This document shows positions 4,418 through 64,000 of a stretch of 64,000 bases of DNA, piece by piece. This DNA is from Christiangramia gaetbulicola (lineage in GTDB: Bacteria > Bacteroidota > Bacteroidia > Flavobacteriales > Flavobacteriaceae): NCBI RefSeq assembly GCF_003054225.1, contig NZ_QBKQ01000001.1, forward strand, positions 868,001-932,000, read 5' to 3'. A model generated the notes under the pieces. That model worked only from the letters and a program-made list of their open reading frames with translations, was not told the origin of the DNA and ran no database searches. Position numbers and translations under genes: made by a program. Numbering within the stretch: the first letter of the stretch is position 1; each line of letters begins with the position of its first letter.

Positions 4418-4499
4418 TACTCGAGGCGGGAATCGAACCCGCACTCCCGAAAGAACTGGATTTTGAATCCAGCGCGTCTACCAATTCCGCCACTCGAGC
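4418..4499 (-). tRNA. tRNA-Leu (anticodon CAA)
   Basis: On the minus strand the sequence folds as a class II tRNA. It has a 7-bp acceptor stem (first pair G-T), the GGAATTGGTAGACGC D arm, an anticodon stem CTGGA/TCCAG around loop TTCAAAA (anticodon CAA), a variable arm TTCTTTCGGGAGT, and T arm GCGGG/CCCGC with loop TTCGATT. The CCA end is not encoded. The long variable arm and the anticodon both indicate leucine. Confidence 0.95.
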
Positions 4500-54035: not shown

Positions 54036-55901
54036 TTATTCTGATGGACTATACCAAATGGGGCTCGTCCAGGCTCGTTCCTGTATGGTCTTGGGAAGAT
54101 CATCCCTTAATGGCCGGTTCAGTTTTATAAGGTCTAAAGTGGACCAGCGCGGAGTGGGAATTTGTAAAACCCTAACGTAATAGAATGCATGTTGTTTAGG
54201 ATCAAAATCTGGATCTTTCCAAACTGTAGAAAGAGCCTCATCCCCAATATCATTGCTATACTTACCGGTTTCCAGGTCTACACTATTTCCAACCTCTGGA
54301 AGTGAACCATTTCCATCCAGTTTTCTATCCCCAGACCAGGCCACATTATATATCTTTTCCTGATTTTTGCCATTGTCAACCCATCCTTTTATTACCTGTA
54401 TTCTGTCCAGGTTAGCACCGTCGGTTTCTTTTAATGCCTGAATAATAAAAACAGGAGCTTTACCTTCTGAATTTACCGAAAGATCACTGCCCATAGGAAC
54501 TCCTTCACTATATGCCGATTCCAGCCAATTATCATTATCCAGAATTTGCTCATTAAAGTCGTAGCCGGCAAAGAAACGTACTTTCATCCTGGGACCTGAA
54601 GTAGCGAAGGTTTCTTTTCTCTGCATGGCCTCAAAAATAGCCTCACGTGTATTAGACGTAGCCCAGATCGCTCCCACGCCTCCGGTGCTGAATTCACGTA
54701 CCTGCTTGGCTGCTTCCTTGCTAACCCCAGGCGGACCATCGATGCGATGCTTAGGATCGTTCTCAAAACCAAATTTACCGGTATAGTTATCTTCTTCGAT
54801 CGATGCGGCGGAATTATGCGTGTCAGAATCCCCAATAAAACCCATTTTAAAAGGATTAATATTTTTAGAATCCTGCAACTCTATACCACGCAACAAAGCG
54901 TCCCGTGCATAACCTCCTTTTTTATTCTTTGGAGGAGTCGCTGTACTTGCCAGCGTATAATCCCAAAGCTCGAAATTAGCGAACTCATCTTTAGGATTCA
55001 GTTGCGGGTGTACTTCAGAGGTTCCTTTGATCTGACTGATCTCATACAATGGCTCATTTCGCATACGGGTTTCAGCATAGGCTTCAGCCAATTCACTGCC
55101 ACCATAGGATTTGGTAACCGGAAACATGAGACCATCACTGGCATTTCCGTTATGAGGAATCGCTAATAATTCATTTCCCTGTGACCTTTGTGAATCCATC
55201 CACTCCCAGAGTTTCTCCGGCACATCAGAATCTATTGCCGAAAATGGTTTAGGAGGTACATTTTCAGTATCAGCGAAAACCACGATTCGGTGGAGGTTTT
55301 GCCAGTCTGGATTAGATGTCCATTCATACCCGGCGAAGGTGGTAAATTTTCCTGGCTCATAATGCTTATCAGCTATATCACAAATTTGTTTCCAGAAATC
55401 CTGCTGGACTTCGGGATCACCTAGGATAGAATCATTTTTACCATTGGAAATCATGTCCAGTATCTGCGTGTAAGCATCAAAGGATTTTTTTGGATCATCC
55501 CCGGTAACATCGGCTGCCAGCGGATGTTTACTAGCCGGATGAGCGGGATCTGCCATTTTGGGTAGGGATCCCATAAACTCTGAATGATCTGATACTACGT
55601 ACCAGTCCAGCGGTTTCTTGATCTTTAAAGGAGTACCATCTCCACCCCCAGGGATCTGCTCGCCTTTGGCCCAGCGATAAGCCCCATCAGGCCCGGAGGC
55701 CGCTCCATTGATATAAGCATCAAAAGACCATTGCGTATGCACATGAAGGTTCCCAAAATAAACATCTTTTGTTGGATTTTCCTGGATCTCAGGTTCATCG
55801 GTTTCTGTAGAAGTTTGGGCGGTATCTTCGGAATCTTTATCAGACTTACAGGAAATGAAAATTATGAGGACAAATACGAAAAAATAAGGTCGCAGCTTCA
55901 T
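54036..55901 (-). CDS. DUF3604 lipoprotein (copy 1)
   Basis: A 621-residue lipoprotein (lipobox FISC, C18) of the uncharacterised DUF3604 family. The start of the domain has PHP-hydrolase-like features: FGNLHVHTQWSFDAY (H53, H55, D61) and VVSDHSEFMGS (D105, H106). Later IPHNGNASDG, GDSDTHNSA and the segment FATSGPRMKVRFF also fit a metal hydrolase active site. The C-terminal third (APVFIIQALKETDGANLDRIQVIKGW, then FYYVRVLQIPTPRWSTLD) is the most conserved part. The reaction is unknown. It faces away from two paralogues across a 141-bp gap. Confidence 0.85.
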   Translation of the reverse strand: MKLRPYFFVFVLIIFISCKSDKDSEDTAQTSTETDEPEIQENPTKDVYFGNLHVHTQWSFDAYINGAASGPDGAYRWAKGEQIPGGGDGTPLKIKKPLDWYVVSDHSEFMGSLPKMADPAHPASKHPLAADVTGDDPKKSFDAYTQILDMISNGKNDSILGDPEVQQDFWKQICDIADKHYEPGKFTTFAGYEWTSNPDWQNLHRIVVFADTENVPPKPFSAIDSDVPEKLWEWMDSQRSQGNELLAIPHNGNASDGLMFPVTKSYGGSELAEAYAETRMRNEPLYEISQIKGTSEVHPQLNPKDEFANFELWDYTLASTATPPKNKKGGYARDALLRGIELQDSKNINPFKMGFIGDSDTHNSAASIEEDNYTGKFGFENDPKHRIDGPPGVSKEAAKQVREFSTGGVGAIWATSNTREAIFEAMQRKETFATSGPRMKVRFFAGYDFNEQILDNDNWLESAYSEGVPMGSDLSVNSEGKAPVFIIQALKETDGANLDRIQVIKGWVDNGKNQEKIYNVAWSGDRKLDGNGSLPEVGNSVDLETGKYSNDIGDEALSTVWKDPDFDPKQHAFYYVRVLQIPTPRWSTLDLIKLNRPLRDDLPKTIQERAWTSPIWYSPSE

Positions 55902-55972
55902 ATTAAAATGTATTAGAAAGTTAACAGAATATCTAATATACTGAAAAACAGTTTTTTATATGCCTTTTTTTG

Positions 55973-55997
55973 TAACTTAATGTTCGCTTTTGCAAAA
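55973..55997 (+). promoter_or_regulatory. Shared upstream element, copy C (with TTTTGCAAAA palindrome)
   Basis: TAACTTAATGTTCGCTTTTG followed by a 10-bp palindrome TTTTGCAAAA (55988-55997), 70 bp before the DUF3604 start at 56043. Close copies lie upstream of the genes at 58080, 60382 and 63429. It may be a promoter or an operator; the spacing does not fit the normal -33/-7 pattern. Confidence 0.45.
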
Positions 55998-56042
55998 ATG
56001 TTTTTGCACAAAATTTCTGTGTAACTAAAAAAACTACCAACT

Positions 56043-57938
56043 ATGAAAAATTTATTCAGGTCGCTTGGGATACTATTAAGCCTTTGCCTTTTCTGGAGCT
56101 GCGGCGATGAAAAAAAGGAAAATGCCGAAAATGAAACTGCTTCCAACAATATGGAAAGCGAGCAGATCGAAAGAAATCCGTTAAAGGAAGCCTACTTTGG
56201 AGACACCCACGTGCATACCGGCTGGTCATTTGATGCCGGCCTTGATGGAGCAACCCTGACTCCAACCGATGCCTATAGATATGCCATAGGTGAAGAAGTC
56301 ACTTCAAATTCTGGAATAAAAACTCAGTTATCTCGTCCTTATGACTGGTTTATGATCACCGATCATTCCGATGGAATGGGAACTATCAATGAAGTGATAG
56401 ATGGAAACCCGGAAATGATGGAAAGCGAAGTGCTGCAAAGGTGGAACGAGGCTTTTGCTTCAGGCAGTGAAGAAGCTGCAGGTGATGCCAAAAGTGAGGT
56501 CATCAACCTGCAGTCTAATGGACAGTTACCAGACCAAATAATGGATCCAAAATGGATGGAAACCGCATGGAATAAAACCATTGATGCGGCAGAGCAATTC
56601 TATCGTCCCGGTGAATTCACCACCTTTACCGCCTATGAGTGGACGGTGAATGCCGGAGGTGGAGATAACCTGCATAGAAATATAATCTATAAAGAAGGTG
56701 GCGACCAGGCTCGTGATATCCTTCCCTTTACAACTTTTGAATCTGAAGACGCTAAGAAACTTTGGGAGTGGATGGCCAATTATGAGGCCAAAACCGGGGA
56801 CAAATTACTGGCCATTCCTCATAATGGTAATATGTCTAACGGCCGGATGTATGAAGAACAACAATTCGATGGTTCCCCTATGACCAAAGAATGGGCTCAA
56901 ATGAGACAGAAATATGAAAGACTTATGGAATTGTTCCAGTATAAAGGGCAGAGTGAAGCTCACCCATTCCTTTCCCCAGAAGATGAATTCGCCGATTATG
57001 AACTCTGGGATCGTGGTAACCTGGTGTTGAAGCCAAAGGAATCAAAGGAAACCTGGAAGTATGAATACTGGCGTGAAGGGCTTAAATCTGGGATGAGGAT
57101 CAAACAGGAACTTGGAGTTAACCCTTTTATGTATGGCTCCAATAGTGCAACAGATACGCATACGGGAATATCATCAGTAGAAGAAGACGAATTCTATGGG
57201 AAGTTTAAAACCGTGGAACCCAGCAATAAGGAAAGATGGAATTTTCCATTAATTTCAGGGAACAACGATGCCTATAAAGGCTGGGAAATGGCGGCTTCTG
57301 GTATTATGGGTGTCTGGGCAGAATCTAATACCCGTGAGGATATCTGGGAAGCCATGTATAGAAGAGAAACTTTTTCCACTACCGGTCCGCGTATGAAGAT
57401 CAGGTTTTTTGGAGGTTTTGACTATACCGAAGAAGATAAAAATGACCTGGCAAAAAATGGATATGATAAAGGTGTAGCCATGGGCGCCATGCTTGGCGCT
57501 GCTCAAAATGATAAAGCGCCAACATTCCTGATCCAGGCGATGAAGGATCCGGAAGGTGCGAACCTGGACAGGGTACAGGTGATCAAAGGCTGGGTAGATG
57601 CAAATGGTGAGACTCAGGAAAAGATCTATCAGGTAGCCTGGTCGGGAGATCGAAAGCTTGATAATAGTGGCAAGCTTCCCGCAGTGGGAAATACAGTAGA
57701 TATGGAAACTGCAGAATATACCAACGATATTGGGGATACTGAATTCACTACCTACTGGACCGATCCCGACTTCGATTCAGCATTACCCGCCTTTTATTAT
57801 GTAAGAGTGTTGGAGATCCCAACACCCCGCTGGACATTATATGATAAAATAAGACATGATCTGGACCTTCCAGATGAAGTTCCCCTGGTACACCAGGAGC
57901 GAGGAGTAAGTTCTCCCATCTGGTATAACCCGGAGTAG
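56043..57938 (+). CDS. DUF3604 lipoprotein (copy 2)
   Basis: A 631-residue lipoprotein (lipobox FWSC, C20) in the same family as the 54036 and 58080 proteins. PHP-like residues are kept: FGDTHVHTGWSFDAGL (H56, H58, D64), MITDHSDGMG, AIPHNGNMSNG, and SATDTHTG. FSTTGPRMKIRFFGGFD and the conserved end FYYVRVLEIPTPRWTLYD and SPIWYNPE are present. The region about 110-180 differs in length and sequence from the other copies, suggesting different substrates. Its 5' end is nearly identical in DNA to that of 58080, so these two are recent duplicates. Confidence 0.85.
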   Translation: MKNLFRSLGILLSLCLFWSCGDEKKENAENETASNNMESEQIERNPLKEAYFGDTHVHTGWSFDAGLDGATLTPTDAYRYAIGEEVTSNSGIKTQLSRPYDWFMITDHSDGMGTINEVIDGNPEMMESEVLQRWNEAFASGSEEAAGDAKSEVINLQSNGQLPDQIMDPKWMETAWNKTIDAAEQFYRPGEFTTFTAYEWTVNAGGGDNLHRNIIYKEGGDQARDILPFTTFESEDAKKLWEWMANYEAKTGDKLLAIPHNGNMSNGRMYEEQQFDGSPMTKEWAQMRQKYERLMELFQYKGQSEAHPFLSPEDEFADYELWDRGNLVLKPKESKETWKYEYWREGLKSGMRIKQELGVNPFMYGSNSATDTHTGISSVEEDEFYGKFKTVEPSNKERWNFPLISGNNDAYKGWEMAASGIMGVWAESNTREDIWEAMYRRETFSTTGPRMKIRFFGGFDYTEEDKNDLAKNGYDKGVAMGAMLGAAQNDKAPTFLIQAMKDPEGANLDRVQVIKGWVDANGETQEKIYQVAWSGDRKLDNSGKLPAVGNTVDMETAEYTNDIGDTEFTTYWTDPDFDSALPAFYYVRVLEIPTPRWTLYDKIRHDLDLPDEVPLVHQERGVSSPIWYNPE

Positions 57939-57956
57939 GAAATGAATAAAATTTTA

Positions 57957-57990
57957 AAAAGCCTGGATTTTAAACCGGGCTTTTATTTTT
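57957..57990 (+). terminator. Terminator between two DUF3604 genes
   Basis: AAAAGCCTGG pairs with CCGGGCTTTT (one T-G pair) around an 8-nt loop, followed by ATTTTTT. It starts 18 bp after the stop, so 56043 and 58080 are separate transcripts. Confidence 0.75.
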
Positions 57991-58016
57991 TAAATAACTG
58001 TAATTCAGATTTTTAG

Positions 58017-58041
58017 TATCTTAATATGCGCTTTTGCAAAA
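58017..58041 (+). promoter_or_regulatory. Shared upstream element, copy D
   Basis: TATCTTAATATGCGCTTTTG followed by the palindrome TTTTGCAAAA (58032-58041), 63 bp before the 58080 start. It aligns with the element at 55973, including the palindrome. Confidence 0.45.
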
Positions 58042-58079
58042 TTATTCCGAGATAAAAGTGTTCAATAAAACTACCAACC

Positions 58080-59975
58080 ATGAAAAATTTTTTGAAGCCA
58101 TTTGGGATACTGTTCAGTCTTTGCCTTTTAGGGAGCTGCGAAGATGAAAAAAAGGAAAATTCAGATGAATTAGCAATCAATAGTAGGGCTGAAACTAAAG
58201 CAGTTGCAGAGAATCCGCTTAAAGAGGTTTATTGGGGAGATACGCACCAGCATACGGGGAACTCATTCGATGTTTACCTGTTTGGTACTCCTAATTCCAC
58301 CCCGGAGATCGCCTATAGGTTCGCCAAAGGGGAAGCGGTGAAAAGCCCTACCACGGGCGAAACCATGCAGTTAAGCAAACCACTGGACTTCCTTGTAGTG
58401 GCAGACCATGCCGAATTACTAGGCTCTATCGCCCTGATGTATGAAAACACCCCTGGAATTTCTGATACCAAATCTGGAAAGGCATTCCTGGAAATTTCTC
58501 CGAACGCAGATGAAGAAGGAATGCAGAAGATCTATGACATTTTGAATTATGCAGCCTTTGACAAGCCAAATGAAGCCAATTTAACCGGTAAAGACCTGAT
58601 CAACGATCTTGGAGGTGAAAAAAGAAAAACAGCCTGGAATAATTACCTGGAAACATCCAAAGCTCACAATGATCCCGGGAAATTCACAACCCTTATTGGC
58701 TGGGAATGGAGCTCAAATAATGGCGGGGCGAACCTTCACCGGATAGTTTTTATGCCCCAGGACGAGGAAGTAGCCAGTAAATTTATACCATATAGCGCCT
58801 TAAGCAGTGATGATCCTGAAGATCTTTGGGATTGGCTCGATGAAACCAGTTCCCGAACAGGAGCCGATTTTGTGGCGATTCCGCATAATCCAAATATCAG
58901 TCTCGGGCTCATGTTCCCTGAGGTTCGTTTGAACGGTGAACCGGTGGACGAAGCTTACGCTCTACAAAGAATGAAGTGGGAACGAGCCGTGGAGATCACC
59001 CAGATCAAAGGAGATTCTGAAACACATCCGGCGCTATCTCCTAATGATGAGTTCGCCGATTTTGAAACCTACGATTTTGCTTTAACCCCCGAGGGTACAA
59101 GGCCAGACCCAACCCTTGCAGATTATGTTAGAACAGGCCTTATGCGCGGCCTGGAACTGGAAAAAAAGCTAGGTACCAATCCATATAAGATTGGACTTAT
59201 TGGTAGTTCAGATTCCCACACAGGAATGAGTGCAATCCAAGAAAATAATTTTGCCGGGAAGGGGCAGCATGATGCCACTCCAGAAAAACGGCCACATCCT
59301 ACAGGGATTGGCTCTTCCAAAGGCTGGGATATGGGTGCAGCCGGATGGGTTGGCGTATGGGCTGAATCCAATACACGTAAAAGTCTGGTCGATGCATTTA
59401 AAAGAAAAGAGGTTTATGCCACCACCGGCCCACGGATCACCTTGCGATTTTTCGGCGGCTTCGAGTATGCTGAAGATGATGTTTCTGGAGAAAATATGGT
59501 TAAAACGGGTTATGATAAAGGAGTACCTATGGGTGGTGATCTTTATAATACTGAAGGAAAGGCTCCGTCTTTTATGATCGCCGCAATGAAGGATCCTGAT
59601 GGAGCCAATCTCGATAGAATTCAGGTGGTTAAAGGTTGGTTGGGAGCCGATGGAAAATCAAAAGAAAAGGTATTTGATGTGGCTCTTTCCGGTGACCGTA
59701 CCGATGGTAGCCAGGCTGTAGGTAACACGGTGGACCTTAAAACAGGAAAGTATACCAACAGCATAGGAGCCAGTGAGCTCTCAACCTTGTGGACCGATCC
59801 AGAATTTGATGCCAAGCAAAGTGCGTTTTATTACGTTAGGGTACTGGAAATTCCAACGCCAAGGTATTCCTTACTGGACGCTATAGAATTGGGGATAGAT
59901 GTGAAGGAAACCAATCATCCTGCCACCATTCAGGAGCGGGTTTACAGTTCCCCTATCTGGTATAACCCGGAATAG
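58080..59975 (+). CDS. DUF3604 lipoprotein (copy 3)
   Basis: A 631-residue lipoprotein (lipobox LGSC, C20). PHP-like motifs: WGDTHQHTGNSFDVYL (H56, H58), VVADHAELLGS, AIPHNPNISLG, GSSDSHTGMSA. The C-terminus (FYYVRVLEIPTPRYSLLD, SPIWYNPE) matches the paralogues. Residues 1-30 copy those of the 56043 protein, but the middle (110-250) is closer to copy 1, for example the aligned LVVADHAELLGSIALM and VVSDHSEFMGSLPKM segments. It has its own upstream element and terminator. Confidence 0.85.
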   Translation: MKNFLKPFGILFSLCLLGSCEDEKKENSDELAINSRAETKAVAENPLKEVYWGDTHQHTGNSFDVYLFGTPNSTPEIAYRFAKGEAVKSPTTGETMQLSKPLDFLVVADHAELLGSIALMYENTPGISDTKSGKAFLEISPNADEEGMQKIYDILNYAAFDKPNEANLTGKDLINDLGGEKRKTAWNNYLETSKAHNDPGKFTTLIGWEWSSNNGGANLHRIVFMPQDEEVASKFIPYSALSSDDPEDLWDWLDETSSRTGADFVAIPHNPNISLGLMFPEVRLNGEPVDEAYALQRMKWERAVEITQIKGDSETHPALSPNDEFADFETYDFALTPEGTRPDPTLADYVRTGLMRGLELEKKLGTNPYKIGLIGSSDSHTGMSAIQENNFAGKGQHDATPEKRPHPTGIGSSKGWDMGAAGWVGVWAESNTRKSLVDAFKRKEVYATTGPRITLRFFGGFEYAEDDVSGENMVKTGYDKGVPMGGDLYNTEGKAPSFMIAAMKDPDGANLDRIQVVKGWLGADGKSKEKVFDVALSGDRTDGSQAVGNTVDLKTGKYTNSIGASELSTLWTDPEFDAKQSAFYYVRVLEIPTPRYSLLDAIELGIDVKETNHPATIQERVYSSPIWYNPE

Positions 59976-59994
59976 AAATCTGTACCAACGATAA

Positions 59995-60026
59995 AAACCT
60001 GCAATTCATAAAATTGCAGGTTTTTT
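59995..60026 (+). terminator. Terminator after the third DUF3604 gene
   Basis: AAACCTGCAATT pairs with AATTGCAGGTTT (12 bp) around a 5-nt loop, then a T-run to 60026. It lies 20 bp after the stop. Confidence 0.85.
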
Positions 60027-60240
60027 ATTTCAAATTGCCGAAAAATGCATTTTCAGCCTATATAATTGACTTTAAATTGTTTAACTTTTAAAATGAACAA
60101 TTGTTAAATATACTGCGTCAAACCCAGTATTTTCGCACAAACGTCTTGTTTACAATAACTTAACGTTGATTCAATGAGTTTTTTTTCTAAATTTAGAAAA
60201 ATCTAATCTAAATAATACCACCAATATAATCTCTACACAA
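60027..60240. other. AT-rich gap between the DUF3604 terminator and the sulfatase leader
   Basis: No protein frame and no hairpin of note apart from the short A/T palindrome CTAAATTTAG near 60187. It should hold the sulfatase promoter. The shared upstream element is at 60156-60171; no exact TAnnTTTG was found. Confidence 0.4.
60156..60171 (+). promoter_or_regulatory. Shared upstream element, copy A (sulfatase 1)
   Basis: TAACTTAACGTTGATT matches TAACTTAATGTT of copy C over the first 12 bases with one change. It lacks the TTTTGCAAAA palindrome, lies 85 bp before the leader hairpin and 226 bp before the sulfatase start. Confidence 0.35.
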
Positions 60241-60381
60241 GATGGCCGTATCCCCACTCGCCATCAGGGTGACTTAACCCCTAATTTCAATGGTATTTAA
60301 AGCCAGGCATAAACGTGTGGCTAAATTGAAAAAGCAGTATTCAAGAGAGATCTTAACTTTTAATAACTAAACTTAGCAATT
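60241..60381 (+). promoter_or_regulatory. Conserved ~140-nt leader of sulfatase 1, possible cis-regulatory RNA
   Basis: The leader begins with a perfect 6-bp hairpin GATGGC/GCCATC (60241-60265) whose 13-nt loop holds TCCCCAC. After exactly 15 nt it reads ACTTAACCC (to 60280). A second small hairpin AGCCA/TGGCT follows (60301-60322), then GAGAGA and TTTTAATAAC ahead of the start codon. The same order, with a conserved loop length and spacing, occurs before sulfatase 2 (63290-63428). It is not a riboswitch class I recognise. Confidence 0.5.
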
Positions 60382-61932
60382 ATGAAAAAAAGCTTCACTA
60401 CAATGTGTCTGTGTCTTTTCCTTAGTGTATGCTTCGCCCAGGAAAAACCGAATATCCTGGTGATATGGGGCGATGATATAGGAACCTGGAACATTAGTCA
60501 CAACAGCCGCGGAATGATGGGATACCACACCCCTAATATCGACAAGATAGCCAGGGAAGGGATCGCATTTACCGATTATTATGCCCAACAGTCCTGTACC
60601 GCAGGGAGAGCGGCCTTTATTGGAGGTAATGTTCCTGTACGCACAGGAATGACCAAAGTAGGCTTGCCCGGTGCAGCTCAGGGGTGGCAGAAAACCGATG
60701 TGACCATGGCTACCGTGCTTAAAAGCCTGGGCTATGCTACGGGACAATTTGGAAAGAATCACCAGGGAGACCTGGATGAACATTTACCAACAATGCATGG
60801 ATTTGACGAGTTTCTTGGTAATCTTTATCACTTAAATGCCGAAGAAGAACCTGAAAATTATGATTATCCAGCAGATATGGTAATGAAAGATGGGCAGACC
60901 TTCAGGGATAAATACGGGCCAAGAGGAGTGATCCATTCCTGGGCAGATGGTAAAGGAGGCCAGCGTATAGAAGATACCGGCCCACTAACCAAAAAACGTA
61001 TGGAAACCATCGACGAGGAAACTTTAAAGGCAGCAAGTGATTTCATTAAAAAACAACATGAAGCCGGGGAACCTTTCTTCGTCTGGTGGAATGGAACACG
61101 TATGCATTTTAGAACCCATGTAAAGGAAGAGCACAGGAATAAAGGCAATGATGAGTATACCGATGGTATGATAGAACACGACATGCATGTTGGGCAATTA
61201 CTAGACCTATTGGATGAATTGGGAATTGCAGATAATACGGTAGTGATGTATTCCACAGATAACGGTCCTCACTATAATACCTGGCCAGATGCCGGAACAA
61301 CACCGTTTAGAGGAGAAAAGAATTCCAACTGGGAGGGAGCTTACAGGGTCCCTACTTTTGTGAAATGGCCCGGAAAATTCCTTAAAGACACAACCCTTAA
61401 CGGCATTGTTTCACATGAAGACTGGCTACCAACCTTTGCCGCCATAGCCGGAGATGCTAATATCAAGGAAAAGATAAAAAATGGAGTGAACCTTAATGGA
61501 AGAAGTTATAAGAATTATATAGATGGCTATAATCAGTTAGATTATCTAAGCGGTAAAAGTGACGAGTCGGCAAGGCATGAATTCTGGTATGTAAATGATG
61601 ATGGCGCCATCGTAGCTGCCCGATATGACGACTGGAAGGTTGTCTTCCTTGAAAATACCGGGGAAAAATTTGGTGTATGGATGGAACCCTGGAGAGAATT
61701 GAGAGTTCCGCTTGTTGAAAACCTGCGCAGGGATCCTTTCGAAAAAGCTCAGCATAATTCTAATACCTATTATGATTGGCTATTAGACAGGGCTTATGTC
61801 TTGGTGCCAATTCAGCAGCTTGCCGGGCAATTTCTTACTACGATGAAGGAATACCCTCCAAGCCAGAAGCCAGGAGCATTTAATTTAAGTGCAATTCAGG
61901 AAACTTTGAACTCCACGGTTAGTGGAAACTAA
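60382..61932 (+). CDS. Exported Cys-type sulfatase (arylsulfatase family)
   Basis: A 516-residue secreted sulfatase (signal peptide about 1-19). Metal-binding acids D31/D32 in WGDDIG; the catalytic cysteine is C72 in SCTAGR (R76), to be turned into formylglycine by an FGE. FGKNHQG, WNGTRMHF, YSTDNGPH and RGEKNSNWEGAYRVPTFVKWPG supply the other expected active-site residues. The motif is CxAxR, a variant of CxPxR. It has no lipobox, so it is periplasmic or released. The HAD lipoprotein begins 50 bp downstream and is likely co-transcribed. The sulfated substrate is unknown. Confidence 0.9.
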   Translation: MKKSFTTMCLCLFLSVCFAQEKPNILVIWGDDIGTWNISHNSRGMMGYHTPNIDKIAREGIAFTDYYAQQSCTAGRAAFIGGNVPVRTGMTKVGLPGAAQGWQKTDVTMATVLKSLGYATGQFGKNHQGDLDEHLPTMHGFDEFLGNLYHLNAEEEPENYDYPADMVMKDGQTFRDKYGPRGVIHSWADGKGGQRIEDTGPLTKKRMETIDEETLKAASDFIKKQHEAGEPFFVWWNGTRMHFRTHVKEEHRNKGNDEYTDGMIEHDMHVGQLLDLLDELGIADNTVVMYSTDNGPHYNTWPDAGTTPFRGEKNSNWEGAYRVPTFVKWPGKFLKDTTLNGIVSHEDWLPTFAAIAGDANIKEKIKNGVNLNGRSYKNYIDGYNQLDYLSGKSDESARHEFWYVNDDGAIVAARYDDWKVVFLENTGEKFGVWMEPWRELRVPLVENLRRDPFEKAQHNSNTYYDWLLDRAYVLVPIQQLAGQFLTTMKEYPPSQKPGAFNLSAIQETLNSTVSGN

Positions 61933-61982
61933 GTGTTAATTACAGAGCGGTCTTTAAATAAGTCCGCCTTTAATTTTTTTCT

Positions 61983-63002
61983 ATGAGCACAAGAACATCA
62001 TACATTCTATACATCTTTTTTAGTTGCCTTTTCTTTTCATGTGGAGAACAGGAAAAAAAGGATGTTGAGAAACCTGTTGCTGCAGAGGAGAAAAAGTCAG
62101 CTCAACTACAAAGCTGGGCAAGTAAACCTCAAAAAGAGATCCTGGATTGGTTGAATAAGGTGACCGATTCCACCTCTTCAGATTTTATCCCGGTTAAGGA
62201 CAGGATCGCGGTATTTGATAATGATGGCACTTTATGGCCGGAGCAGCCCTGGCCAAACCAGTTACAATTTGCCTTCGATTATATCCGGGCAAAGAAGGAC
62301 GATCATCCAGAATGGCAAAAAGATCAATTCTTAAAAGAAATTTCTGAAGGAAATTATAGTGGTTTAAGTAAGGCAGGAGTTCCAGGAGTTTTTAAAGCCG
62401 TGAATGCTTCCCATACAGCTATGAGCGAAAAAGAGTTTTCGGAAGCTGTTCGGAAATGGCTTGACACGGCCACCAACCAGAAATTCAATAAAAAATATGA
62501 TGCCCTGGTATATCAACCCATGCTGGAACTTTTGGAGTTGCTTCGAGAGCATGATTTCAAAACCTTTATCGTAAGTGGTGGGGGTGCAGATTTTATGAGG
62601 GTATTTACCGAAGAAGTTTATGGCATTCCGCCTTACCAGGTAATAGGAAGTTATGGAGAAGTAGATTTTGAAATTAAGGATGGCGAGCCGGTAATAAACA
62701 AGATCGAGGGTGATGTGTACTTCGATGATAAGGAGGCCAAGCCAAAAGCTATCCACAGGTTTATTGGCAAAAGACCAGTATTCGTAGGTGGAAACAGCGA
62801 TGGTGACCAGGCCATGATGGAATATGCCAGCGCTTCAAATTATAACACCATGTGTGTTCTGTTATATCATACAGATGATGATCGGGAATATGCCTATGAT
62901 ACCAAAACGTTGAGCGGGCATTTGGAAACTGCGCTGGAAAAAGCCAAAGAAAAGAATTGGTTAGTTATAAATATGAAAGAAGATTTTCTAAAGATCTTCT
63001 AG
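61983..63002 (+). CDS. HAD-superfamily phosphatase lipoprotein
   Basis: A 339-residue lipoprotein (lipobox FFSC, C20) carrying a HAD hydrolase domain. Motif I is FDNDGTLW with the nucleophile/acid pair (D and D two apart), motif II IVSGGGADFM, and motif IV GGNSDGDQAMM. The fold resembles phosphoserine phosphatase-like HADs. A lipid-anchored, exported HAD is unusual, since most are cytoplasmic. It sits between the two sulfatases and may remove a phosphate from a product or intermediate of the same pathway; the substrate is unknown. Confidence 0.8.
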   Translation: MSTRTSYILYIFFSCLFFSCGEQEKKDVEKPVAAEEKKSAQLQSWASKPQKEILDWLNKVTDSTSSDFIPVKDRIAVFDNDGTLWPEQPWPNQLQFAFDYIRAKKDDHPEWQKDQFLKEISEGNYSGLSKAGVPGVFKAVNASHTAMSEKEFSEAVRKWLDTATNQKFNKKYDALVYQPMLELLELLREHDFKTFIVSGGGADFMRVFTEEVYGIPPYQVIGSYGEVDFEIKDGEPVINKIEGDVYFDDKEAKPKAIHRFIGKRPVFVGGNSDGDQAMMEYASASNYNTMCVLLYHTDDDREYAYDTKTLSGHLETALEKAKEKNWLVINMKEDFLKIF

Positions 63003-63028
63003 ATCGTCCTTAAAAAATTAATTCCAAA

Positions 63029-63063
63029 AATACCGGTAAGTATCATGCTTACCGGTATTTTTT
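63029..63063 (+). terminator. Terminator after the HAD lipoprotein gene
   Basis: AATACCGGTAAG pairs perfectly with CTTACCGGTATT over a 7-nt loop and is followed by six T. It ends the sulfatase 1 - HAD transcript. Confidence 0.9.
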
Positions 63064-63289
63064 GTTTGAAAAATGCAAAATTGACCTTCATGGTGATTCT
63101 TTCCAGGTTTAACCTCTTTGTAAAGCAGATTAAACATTAGTTAAAAATATTCGCTCACTGCTTACAATCACTACAAATATCTGAATTATAGTTAGTTAGG
63201 GTGTTTTGTAAGTTTTTTTTGCTAAATTAATGCTTGCATTTTGGCATAACTAATCTGAATCTCATAACCATTACAGGACTTTAATGATA
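63064..63289. other. AT-rich gap before sulfatase 2 leader
   Basis: No gene-like frame. It contains the shared upstream element copy B (63223-63244). Otherwise nothing recognisable. Confidence 0.4.
63223..63244 (+). promoter_or_regulatory. Shared upstream element, copy B (sulfatase 2)
   Basis: TAAATTAATGCTTGCATTTTGG, preceded by a run of T and TTTG, aligns with copies C and D at the TTAATG and TTTTG parts. It lies 67 bp before the leader hairpin and 206 bp before the sulfatase 2 ATG. Confidence 0.4.
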
Positions 63290-63428
63290 GGTGGCTCTTT
63301 CCCCACGCGCCATCATAGCAACTTAACCCAATTTTTTAACTGAAATCCTGTGTTTACATATCAGGCAAAAATACCTGGTACTATTATTTGAGAGAGACCA
63401 ATTTTTAATAACCGCTAAAATCATACTT
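63290..63428 (+). promoter_or_regulatory. Conserved ~140-nt leader of sulfatase 2, possible cis-regulatory RNA
   Basis: Hairpin GGTGGC/GCCATC (63290-63314) with one G-T pair and a 13-nt loop holding TCCCCAC; then ACTTAACCC ending at 63329 with the same 15-nt spacing as in the sulfatase 1 leader. A small hairpin CAGG/CCTG follows (63362-63377), then GAGAGAGA and TTTTTAATAAC 16 nt before the ATG. The stem difference (A-T to G-T) keeps the pairing. Confidence 0.5.
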
Positions 63429-64000
63429 ATGAAAAAAAATTTCGCCATTTTAATTTTGTGTTTTGGGCTAATTACTAATTCAGTTATGGCACAGGAAAAA
63501 CCCAATATCCTCGTGATATGGGGAGATGATATTGGCTGGACCAACCTGAGTGCTTATGAGCACGGGGTAATGGCTTATACCACTCCCAATATTGACCGGA
63601 TAGGTGAAGAAGGGATCATTTTTACAGACCATTACGCACAGCCTTCCTGTACAGCAGGACGTGCCGCATTTATAACCGGGCAGTACCCTATACGTTCGGG
63701 GATGACCACCGTTGGTCAGCCGGGAGACGCATTAGGTTTGAAAAAGGAATCGCCAAGTCTGGCAGAGGTATTGAAAAAGCAGGGGTACCGTACAGGTCAT
63801 TTCGGAAAAAACCACCTTGGGGACCGAAACGAGCATTTACCAACCGTTCATGGTTTTGATGAGTTCTTCGGCAACCTTTACCACCTGAACACCCAGGAGG
63901 AAGCCGAACAAAGGGATTACCAGAACTTTGGAAAAGCCTATTCCGGTTCCCTGGAAGAATACGAAAAGAAATTCGGTACTCGTGGAGTGATACATTCATT
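63429..64000 (+). CDS. Exported Cys-type sulfatase 2 (N-terminal part, cut by window end)
   Basis: ATG at 63429 opens a frame that runs off the right edge (190 codons visible). Signal peptide about 1-22 (ending VMAQ). It parallels sulfatase 1 closely: [10 protein letters not shown] (D33, D34), catalytic C74 in SCTAGR (R78), FGKNHLGD, and [14 protein letters not shown]. The two proteins are clear paralogues, but this copy has a longer insertion after the YHLN segment ([18 protein letters not shown]). It shares the leader RNA with sulfatase 1. Confidence 0.88.

Follow-up and report, generated by a model that had tools for sequence, protein, structure and literature searches.

A conserved leader block with a putative RNA hairpin precedes two old sulfatase paralogues in Christiangramia gaetbulicola

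In Flavobacterium psychrophilum 64 structured 5' leaders were reported in a study that also concerns the Flavo-1 motif and reports clues for leader peptides upstream of amino-acid operons (PMC9723704). For Bacteroides polysaccharide utilization loci (PULs), another study describes how glycan-use genes are regulated post-transcriptionally at the 5' end of their mRNAs, involving the small RNAs FopS and GibS and the protein RbpB (PMC11697453). Here a short block common to the leaders of two neighbouring sulfatase genes, sulfatase 1 (S1) and sulfatase 2 (S2), is described in a 64,000-nucleotide (nt) stretch of the marine flavobacterium Christiangramia gaetbulicola (contig NZ_QBKQ01000001.1, positions 868,001 to 932,000). 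This whole stretch is called the window and all coordinates refer to it.

Reading and alignment of the two leaders reveals the block GRTGGC-N4-TCCCCA-N3-GCC-N9-ACTTAACCC at 60241-60280 (S1) and 63290-63329 (S2). The leaders have the following features, among them an open reading frame (ORF):

60241..60265, + strand: hairpin 1 of S1, stem GATGGC (60241-60246) and GCCATC (60260-60265), 13-nt loop with TCCCCAC
60242..60277, + strand: 11-codon ORF of the S1 leader overlapping hairpin 1, ATG...ACT TAA, MAVSPLAIRVT (pattern search in 24 genomes)
60272..60280, + strand: conserved ACTTAACCC of the S1 leader (pattern search, leader alignment)
60301..60322, + strand: hairpin 2 of S1, AGCCAGGCATAAACGTGTGGCT (fold against shuffles, four-sequence comparison)
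60345..60350, + strand: GAGAGA block of the S1 leader (alignment; present in C. aestuarii, absent in C. bathymodioli)
63290..63314, + strand: hairpin 1 of S2, stem GGTGGC (63290-63295) and GCCATC (63309-63314), 13-nt loop with TCCCCAC
63291..63326, + strand: 11-codon ORF of the S2 leader overlapping hairpin 1, GTG...ACT TAA, V/MALSPRAIIAT
63321..63329, + strand: conserved ACTTAACCC of the S2 leader (pattern search, leader alignment)
63359..63380, + strand: hairpin 2 of S2, TATCAGGCAAAAATACCTGGTA (fold against shuffles, terminator scan, four-sequence comparison)
63390..63397, + strand: GAGAGAGA block of the S2 leader (leader sequence)

The 6-bp stems, the 13-nt loop and ACTTAACCC at a fixed distance had been pointed out in an initial annotation of this DNA and are confirmed at these places; GAGAGA and a TTTTAATAAC-like block are likewise present before the sulfatase starts in the leader alignment. 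A 30-nt pattern of the block has two matches in the window and none in 100 shuffles, and in the 3.64-Mb genome it is found only at these two places with up to three mismatches allowed. TCCCCA, GCC and ACTTAACCC are unchanged across four leaders (S1, S2 and one each of C. aestuarii and C. bathymodioli, hereafter the four leaders), so that two short C-rich stretches of the block are invariant.

For a gene pair of this age, such conservation is far more than expected. The S1 and S2 proteins are 52% identical and their four-fold degenerate sites agree at 29/105, near chance level and thus near saturation, while the 39-nt block is identical at 30/39 positions without gaps. Around it fewer positions agree: 20/34 upstream, and 21/41 and 31/51 downstream. 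Selection on a conserved leader element, proposed in the initial annotation, is supported by this difference. A recent duplication or gene conversion that copied the leader without selection, named there as the competing explanation, draws on the two genes being paralogous and close neighbours; it is rejected on the near-saturation of the four-fold sites and has hardly any credibility left, since the block is as similar between the paralogues as between orthologues of different species (29-32/39) and the flanking leader differs more.

RNAalifold run on the free alignment of the four leaders returns exactly hairpin 1, at -8.1 kcal/mol. None of 300 column shuffles, which kept the gap pattern and the variable/invariant class, is as low (mean -1.2, standard deviation 1.4; z -4.8). 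The stem is pairing-compatible in the four leaders, with 24/24 cells paired, and its three changes all keep pairing, all being wobbles. Folded singly against shuffles, the core reaches z -3.0 in S1, -1.6 in C. aestuarii and -1.7 in C. bathymodioli. Single folds of S1 and of S2 also show a helix that encloses hairpin 1; it was discarded, since its pairing partners are not the same in the two leaders.

Hairpin 2, described initially as kept in position, is found in both leaders but its place is only roughly kept, at 23 (S1) and 32 (S2) nt past the TAA and 59 and 48 nt before the ATG. Fragments cut by eye fold with z -3.6 (S1), -3.9 (S2), -2.3 (C. aestuarii) and -3.1 (C. bathymodioli) against shuffles. 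In a hand-chosen register of the four sequences, 4/7 pairs are changed on both sides (19/500 shuffles as good), and in the same hand-cut fragments 23/28 cells are paired (25/500 as good). A free alignment puts three of the four leaders in that register, alifold on the four-leader alignment does not predict hairpin 2, and the C. bathymodioli hairpin 2 alone folds in a shifted register. Covariation in hairpin 2 is suggestive only.

A third, related sulfatase (S3) is present in C. aestuarii (loci L013/L015) and C. bathymodioli (L008/L016). The gene is broken in both, by an internal TGA in C. bathymodioli and as two split frames in C. aestuarii, and the lesions apparently differ between the species. 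At the equivalent place the S3 leader carries CCTGGC-TATCCCCAAAA-GCCTGG (GTCGAGG in C. aestuarii) and keeps GGC-TATCCCCA-GCC, with the ORF lost: there is no start codon and the loop is 2 nt shorter. The element folds at -7.4 and -5.0 kcal/mol in the two genomes, and a comparable element arises in 1/200,000 mononucleotide shuffles of the leader from C. bathymodioli, a count made post hoc. S3 supports stem and loop as a putative feature independent of the ORF. On this ground and that of the alifold energy, an RNA hairpin is the best reading of the block.

The explanation favoured here, to which we give about an even chance, is a conserved cis-acting RNA element in the mRNA leader, which would be read through its C-rich loop by a lineage factor and co-set the expression of both sulfatases. 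Each gene would probably have its own promoter and an mRNA leader of ~180-190 nt, in which the 6-bp stem closes the C-rich loop UCCCCA and is followed by ACUUAACCC and by the second hairpin before the start codon. The element would act in the mRNA, where the lineage factor, an RNA-binding protein or a small RNA, may read the loop and ACUUAACCC and set translation or stability of the sulfatase mRNA, both paralogues being jointly regulated; ribosomes may or may not translate the overlapping 11-codon ORF. If real, this is a compact lineage-specific RNA element that places two old paralogous sulfatases of a marine flavobacterium under one post-transcriptional control. To our knowledge, few such controls have been worked out in marine flavobacteria.

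That the leaders are non-coding, as first annotated, is an incomplete description. In 4/4 copies used for the covariance model described below, the block also reads, without gaps, as an ORF of 11 codons closed by a TAA in frame, and the A-T to G-T change between the S1 and S2 stems, which does keep pairing as claimed initially, is also a change of start codon from ATG to GTG, the sole start change observed. A translated leader ORF, whose peptide MA-[VLI]-SP-x-A-[IV]-x-x-T would gate sulfatase transcription or translation, is an unlikely alternative that still deserves weight. Its translation would open hairpin 1, which has the start codon in its 5' arm, in the manner of leader-peptide or Rho-dependent attenuators. 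Start and stop remain in frame in all four leaders, codons 3 and 8 remain V, L or I, and the leaders hold much C and little G (C/G 2.58-3.62 over their best 70 nt). Yet simulations that hold only the conserved and stem bases leave the frame open in all four leaders in 77% of cases, and the peptide conservation is not significant, as good an amino-acid score arising in 16% of column permutations (P=0.16). Third positions are not enriched for variation: of 12 codons, 5 vary at position 1, 3 at position 2 and 5 at position 3. Four-fold positions of the ORF are identical in the four leaders at 4/5, against 10/100 such columns of the sulfatase coding sequence (CDS; P=5e-4). S3 has no ORF, and in genome G405, which has an intact sulfatase 2 orthologue (L018, also L010; 93% identical) with a leader alike up to the block, the stop is lost and the frame continues over 58 codons, ending shortly before the sulfatase start. 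The excess of C over G is unspecial, a ratio of 2.58 being reached by 5/28 other leaders of the window and 16/22 other flavobacterial sulfatase leaders. A Rho site deduced from the C-rich leaders was dropped, many control leaders being equally C-rich. In a terminator scan of 59900-63500 (4 sites against 3.2 in shuffles) only S2 hairpin 2 passes in the two leaders and nothing in S1; structure alternatives downstream of the ORF were viewed by single folds only. The tests on codons versus RNA lean towards constraint at the nucleotide level. The case shows that a short ORF running from start to stop and a hairpin can mimic each other, and that third-position conservation helps to separate them.

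Read as DNA, the inverted repeat GATGGC-N13-GCCATC, perfect in S1 and C. bathymodioli, could be an operator, a repressor site ~50 bp downstream of the promoter. This is rather improbable: the changes that break the symmetry in S2 and C. aestuarii leave RNA pairing intact, the best conserved parts are the non-symmetric centre and ACTTAACCC outside the repeat, the S3 spacing is 2 bp shorter, and there is a second operator candidate, upstream of the promoter. A special case of the RNA element, of low probability, is a trans-encoded small RNA pairing with UCCCCA and/or ACUUAACCC, as FopS and GibS act on Bacteroides PUL mRNAs. The two short invariant C-rich stretches would suit it, as does the control of glycan genes by small RNAs in Bacteroides (PMC11697453), where, on the other hand, FopS is reported to bind near the start codon, from which the block is ~100-140 nt away. 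Moreover, a search of four genomes for GGGTTAAG-N0-30-TGGGGA yielded only the four leaders' own antisense strand and one further place, in the window's genome, without counterpart. The slimmer chance that the C-rich loop pairs with its own message concerns the Val-Ile-Trp-Gly-Asp codons (UGGGG) ~30 codons into the sulfatase. UGGGG is present there in 7/7 genes compared. For 4/4 leaders ranked (those of S1 and S2, and of C. aestuarii and C. bathymodioli), no other stretch of the CDS complements the loop better (-16.1 to -18.4 kcal/mol). Loop (CCCCAG) and target (CUGGGG) of C. bathymodioli are both changed relative to the others, and the changes extend the pairing. Random loops with TCCCCA and the inner stem fixed pair as well, with P=0.16 for S1, 0.23 for S2, 0.07 for C. 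bathymodioli and 0.64 and 0.52 for two S3 copies, so that the pairing may be due to chance; among 24-nt stretches of the window, ~0.14% pair as well with the S1 loop and 0.29% with the S2 loop. If true, the leader would either sense translation of the first 30 codons or block it, and these Val-Ile-Trp-Gly-Asp codons could mark sulfatase mRNAs for recognition.

The RNA element itself has several observations weighing against it. Compensating stem changes, anticipated in the initial annotation, are seen in none of the six pairs of stem 1, where there are three wobbles; the four two-sided pairs belong to hairpin 2, in a register of four sequences that was set by hand. With z -0.67, the S2 core is not more stable than its shuffles, and the outer three pairs of stem 1 form with a probability of ~0.2 in C. 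aestuarii. The S3 leader is without ACTTAACCC and may be drifting, because the S3 genes are broken in both genomes. In the G405 leader the stem is unstable (+3.7 kcal/mol) and ACTTAACCC is gone; since the gene is intact, the element is not required for its persistence. The three orthologues alone give a third-position excess of P=0.06 (yardstick 71/195), so the third-position case rests on the paralogue. No trans-acting RNA with a bipartite complement was found in four genomes, a single-stretch partner not having been searched for. With only four clear copies, from three species, power is low.

The genes and the candidate transcription signals around the block are:

60096..60109, + strand: upstream site AACAATTGTTAAAT of S1, candidate transcription-factor site (alignment of five upstream regions)
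60180..60196, + strand: promoter-like T run and CTAAATTTAG of S1 (sequence; orthologous leaders alike)
60382..61932, + strand: sulfatase 1, 516 amino acids (aa), PF00884 (Pfam scan)
61983..63002, + strand: HAD-family hydrolase between both sulfatases, PF12710 (Pfam scan)
63133..63148, + strand: upstream site AACATTAGTTAAAAAT of S2 (alignment of five upstream regions)
63221..63229, + strand: promoter-like GCTAAATTA behind a T run, S2 (sequence, alignment)
63429..64000, + strand: sulfatase 2, 524 aa, PF00884, extending beyond the window end (Pfam scan)

Inverted repeats running into T tracts lie behind the upstream genes at 59993-60025 and 63026-63062, and a T run with a TAAATT box precedes each sulfatase, which makes separate promoters for S1 and S2 probable. 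Neither repeat is among the sites given by the terminator scan of 59900-63500. CTAAATTTAG is presumably a -7 box of the Bacteroidetes type, a promoter type that the sigma-70 scan does not cover. The element begins 44 (S1) and 60 (S2) nt past the promoter-like box and should hence be transcribed. Five of five promoters compared (S1, S2, C. aestuarii, C. bathymodioli and G405) have a AACAATTGTTAAAAAT-like site, which in S1 and S2 lies ~75-80 nt upstream of the -7 box; only its GTTAAA is invariant, in register. It is a candidate activator or repressor site common to the paralogues. Before the start, a TTAATAAC/TTATTAAC-like stretch is also present at several other flavobacterial sulfatases that are without the block and is therefore not specific to these leaders. 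Several flavobacterial sulfatases (L006, L045, L054, L055, L064) have a TTATTAAC/TTTAATAACC-like stretch ~15-30 nt ahead of their start codon, possibly a general translation signal.

The gene order in the window's genome is three DUF3604 genes (one on the - strand), sulfatase 1, the HAD hydrolase, sulfatase 2 and a gene for a 188-aa protein, after which come two Omp85-like proteins and a DUF481 protein; two proteins of the cluster are without Pfam match. The DUF3604 genes stand in a row at 54036-59975, and the two on the + strand share another short leader, ending in ACTACCAACYATG. Going by ORF sizes alone, the order is the same in C. aestuarii, where DUF3604-sized ORFs directly precede sulfatase 2; in C. 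bathymodioli, ORFs of 563, 159 and 550 aa (unscanned) lie in between. Of the 19 proteins scanned around the block, none was recognisable as a regulator.

The element is confined to this gene cluster in the genomes searched. A covariance model (R1) built from the four leaders matches 10 of 24 genus genomes at E<=1, with four clear copies and eight weak places (E 0.11-0.78). The clear copies, two here and one each in C. aestuarii (G397) and C. bathymodioli (G266), all precede sulfatases of one cluster, the two outside ones being upstream of the sulfatase 2 orthologue (96% identical in C. aestuarii, 91% in C. bathymodioli). The initial annotation had expected many such hits before sulfatase or SusC genes: clear hits do lie upstream of sulfatases, but in two sister species only, and none precedes SusC. 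Two larger, overlapping genome sets were scored with stricter filters. Among 397 family genomes (E<=0.02) nine match, namely the own genome, C. bathymodioli and seven weak ones; among 395 order genomes (E<=0.001) the three matches are the own genome and two weak ones, one of them already seen before. The loci of the 16 weak places (E 4e-4 to 0.8) were examined: in none does the stretch retrieved encode a relative of these sulfatases, and 14/16 places lie inside open frames of at least 196 codons (exceptions L027 and L080). The weak places look like chance matches. The exact pattern is found only in C. bathymodioli and C. aestuarii in a genome collection of 84,980 species and has no match in viral contigs; a looser pattern matches only the own genome among the 397 family genomes. 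A loose stem-loop pattern occurs in 18/24 genus genomes, yet in the window's own genome only at the two known places, so no regulon is visible there.

Sulfatases of this kind are present in only 5/24 genus genomes. Outside the genus, the element is missing from family sulfatases, at least 25 matches in 16 genomes (cut at E 1e-150) and three from the nearest genus, the best model match being E 0.7. In four leaders of the nearest other genus (L075, L076, L077, L043), whose sulfatase 2 is 84-86% identical, the element is absent and C exceeds G; three of the four share a AAAAAATTGTTAATC stretch before the start. In Rfam 15, whose families we take to include Flavo-1, the sole match of the window above gathering cut-off is a tRNA at 4418-4499 and the leaders have none; six loci searched up to E=1 gave five matches, none at gathering score. 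No title on this leader was found among the literature matches listed. The element appears lineage-specific, so far in few sister species.

Compared with known systems, the sulfatase leaders resemble the structured flavobacterial 5' leaders (PMC9723704) in being long structured mRNA leaders; they differ in matching no Rfam family and in belonging to one gene cluster of three species. With leader-peptide attenuators they share a short ORF overlapping a hairpin upstream of the gene. Unlike in these, the sulfatase ORF contains no stretch of a single repeated amino acid, S1 hairpin 1 is not followed by a terminator-like site and the peptide conservation is not significant. FopS, GibS and RbpB differ in that the sulfatase block lies ~100-140 nt upstream of the start codon, no SusC or SusD is encoded among the 19 scanned proteins around it and no bipartite partner RNA was found. 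The likeness to them is control at the 5' end of a glycan-use mRNA, as proposed here for the two sulfatases.

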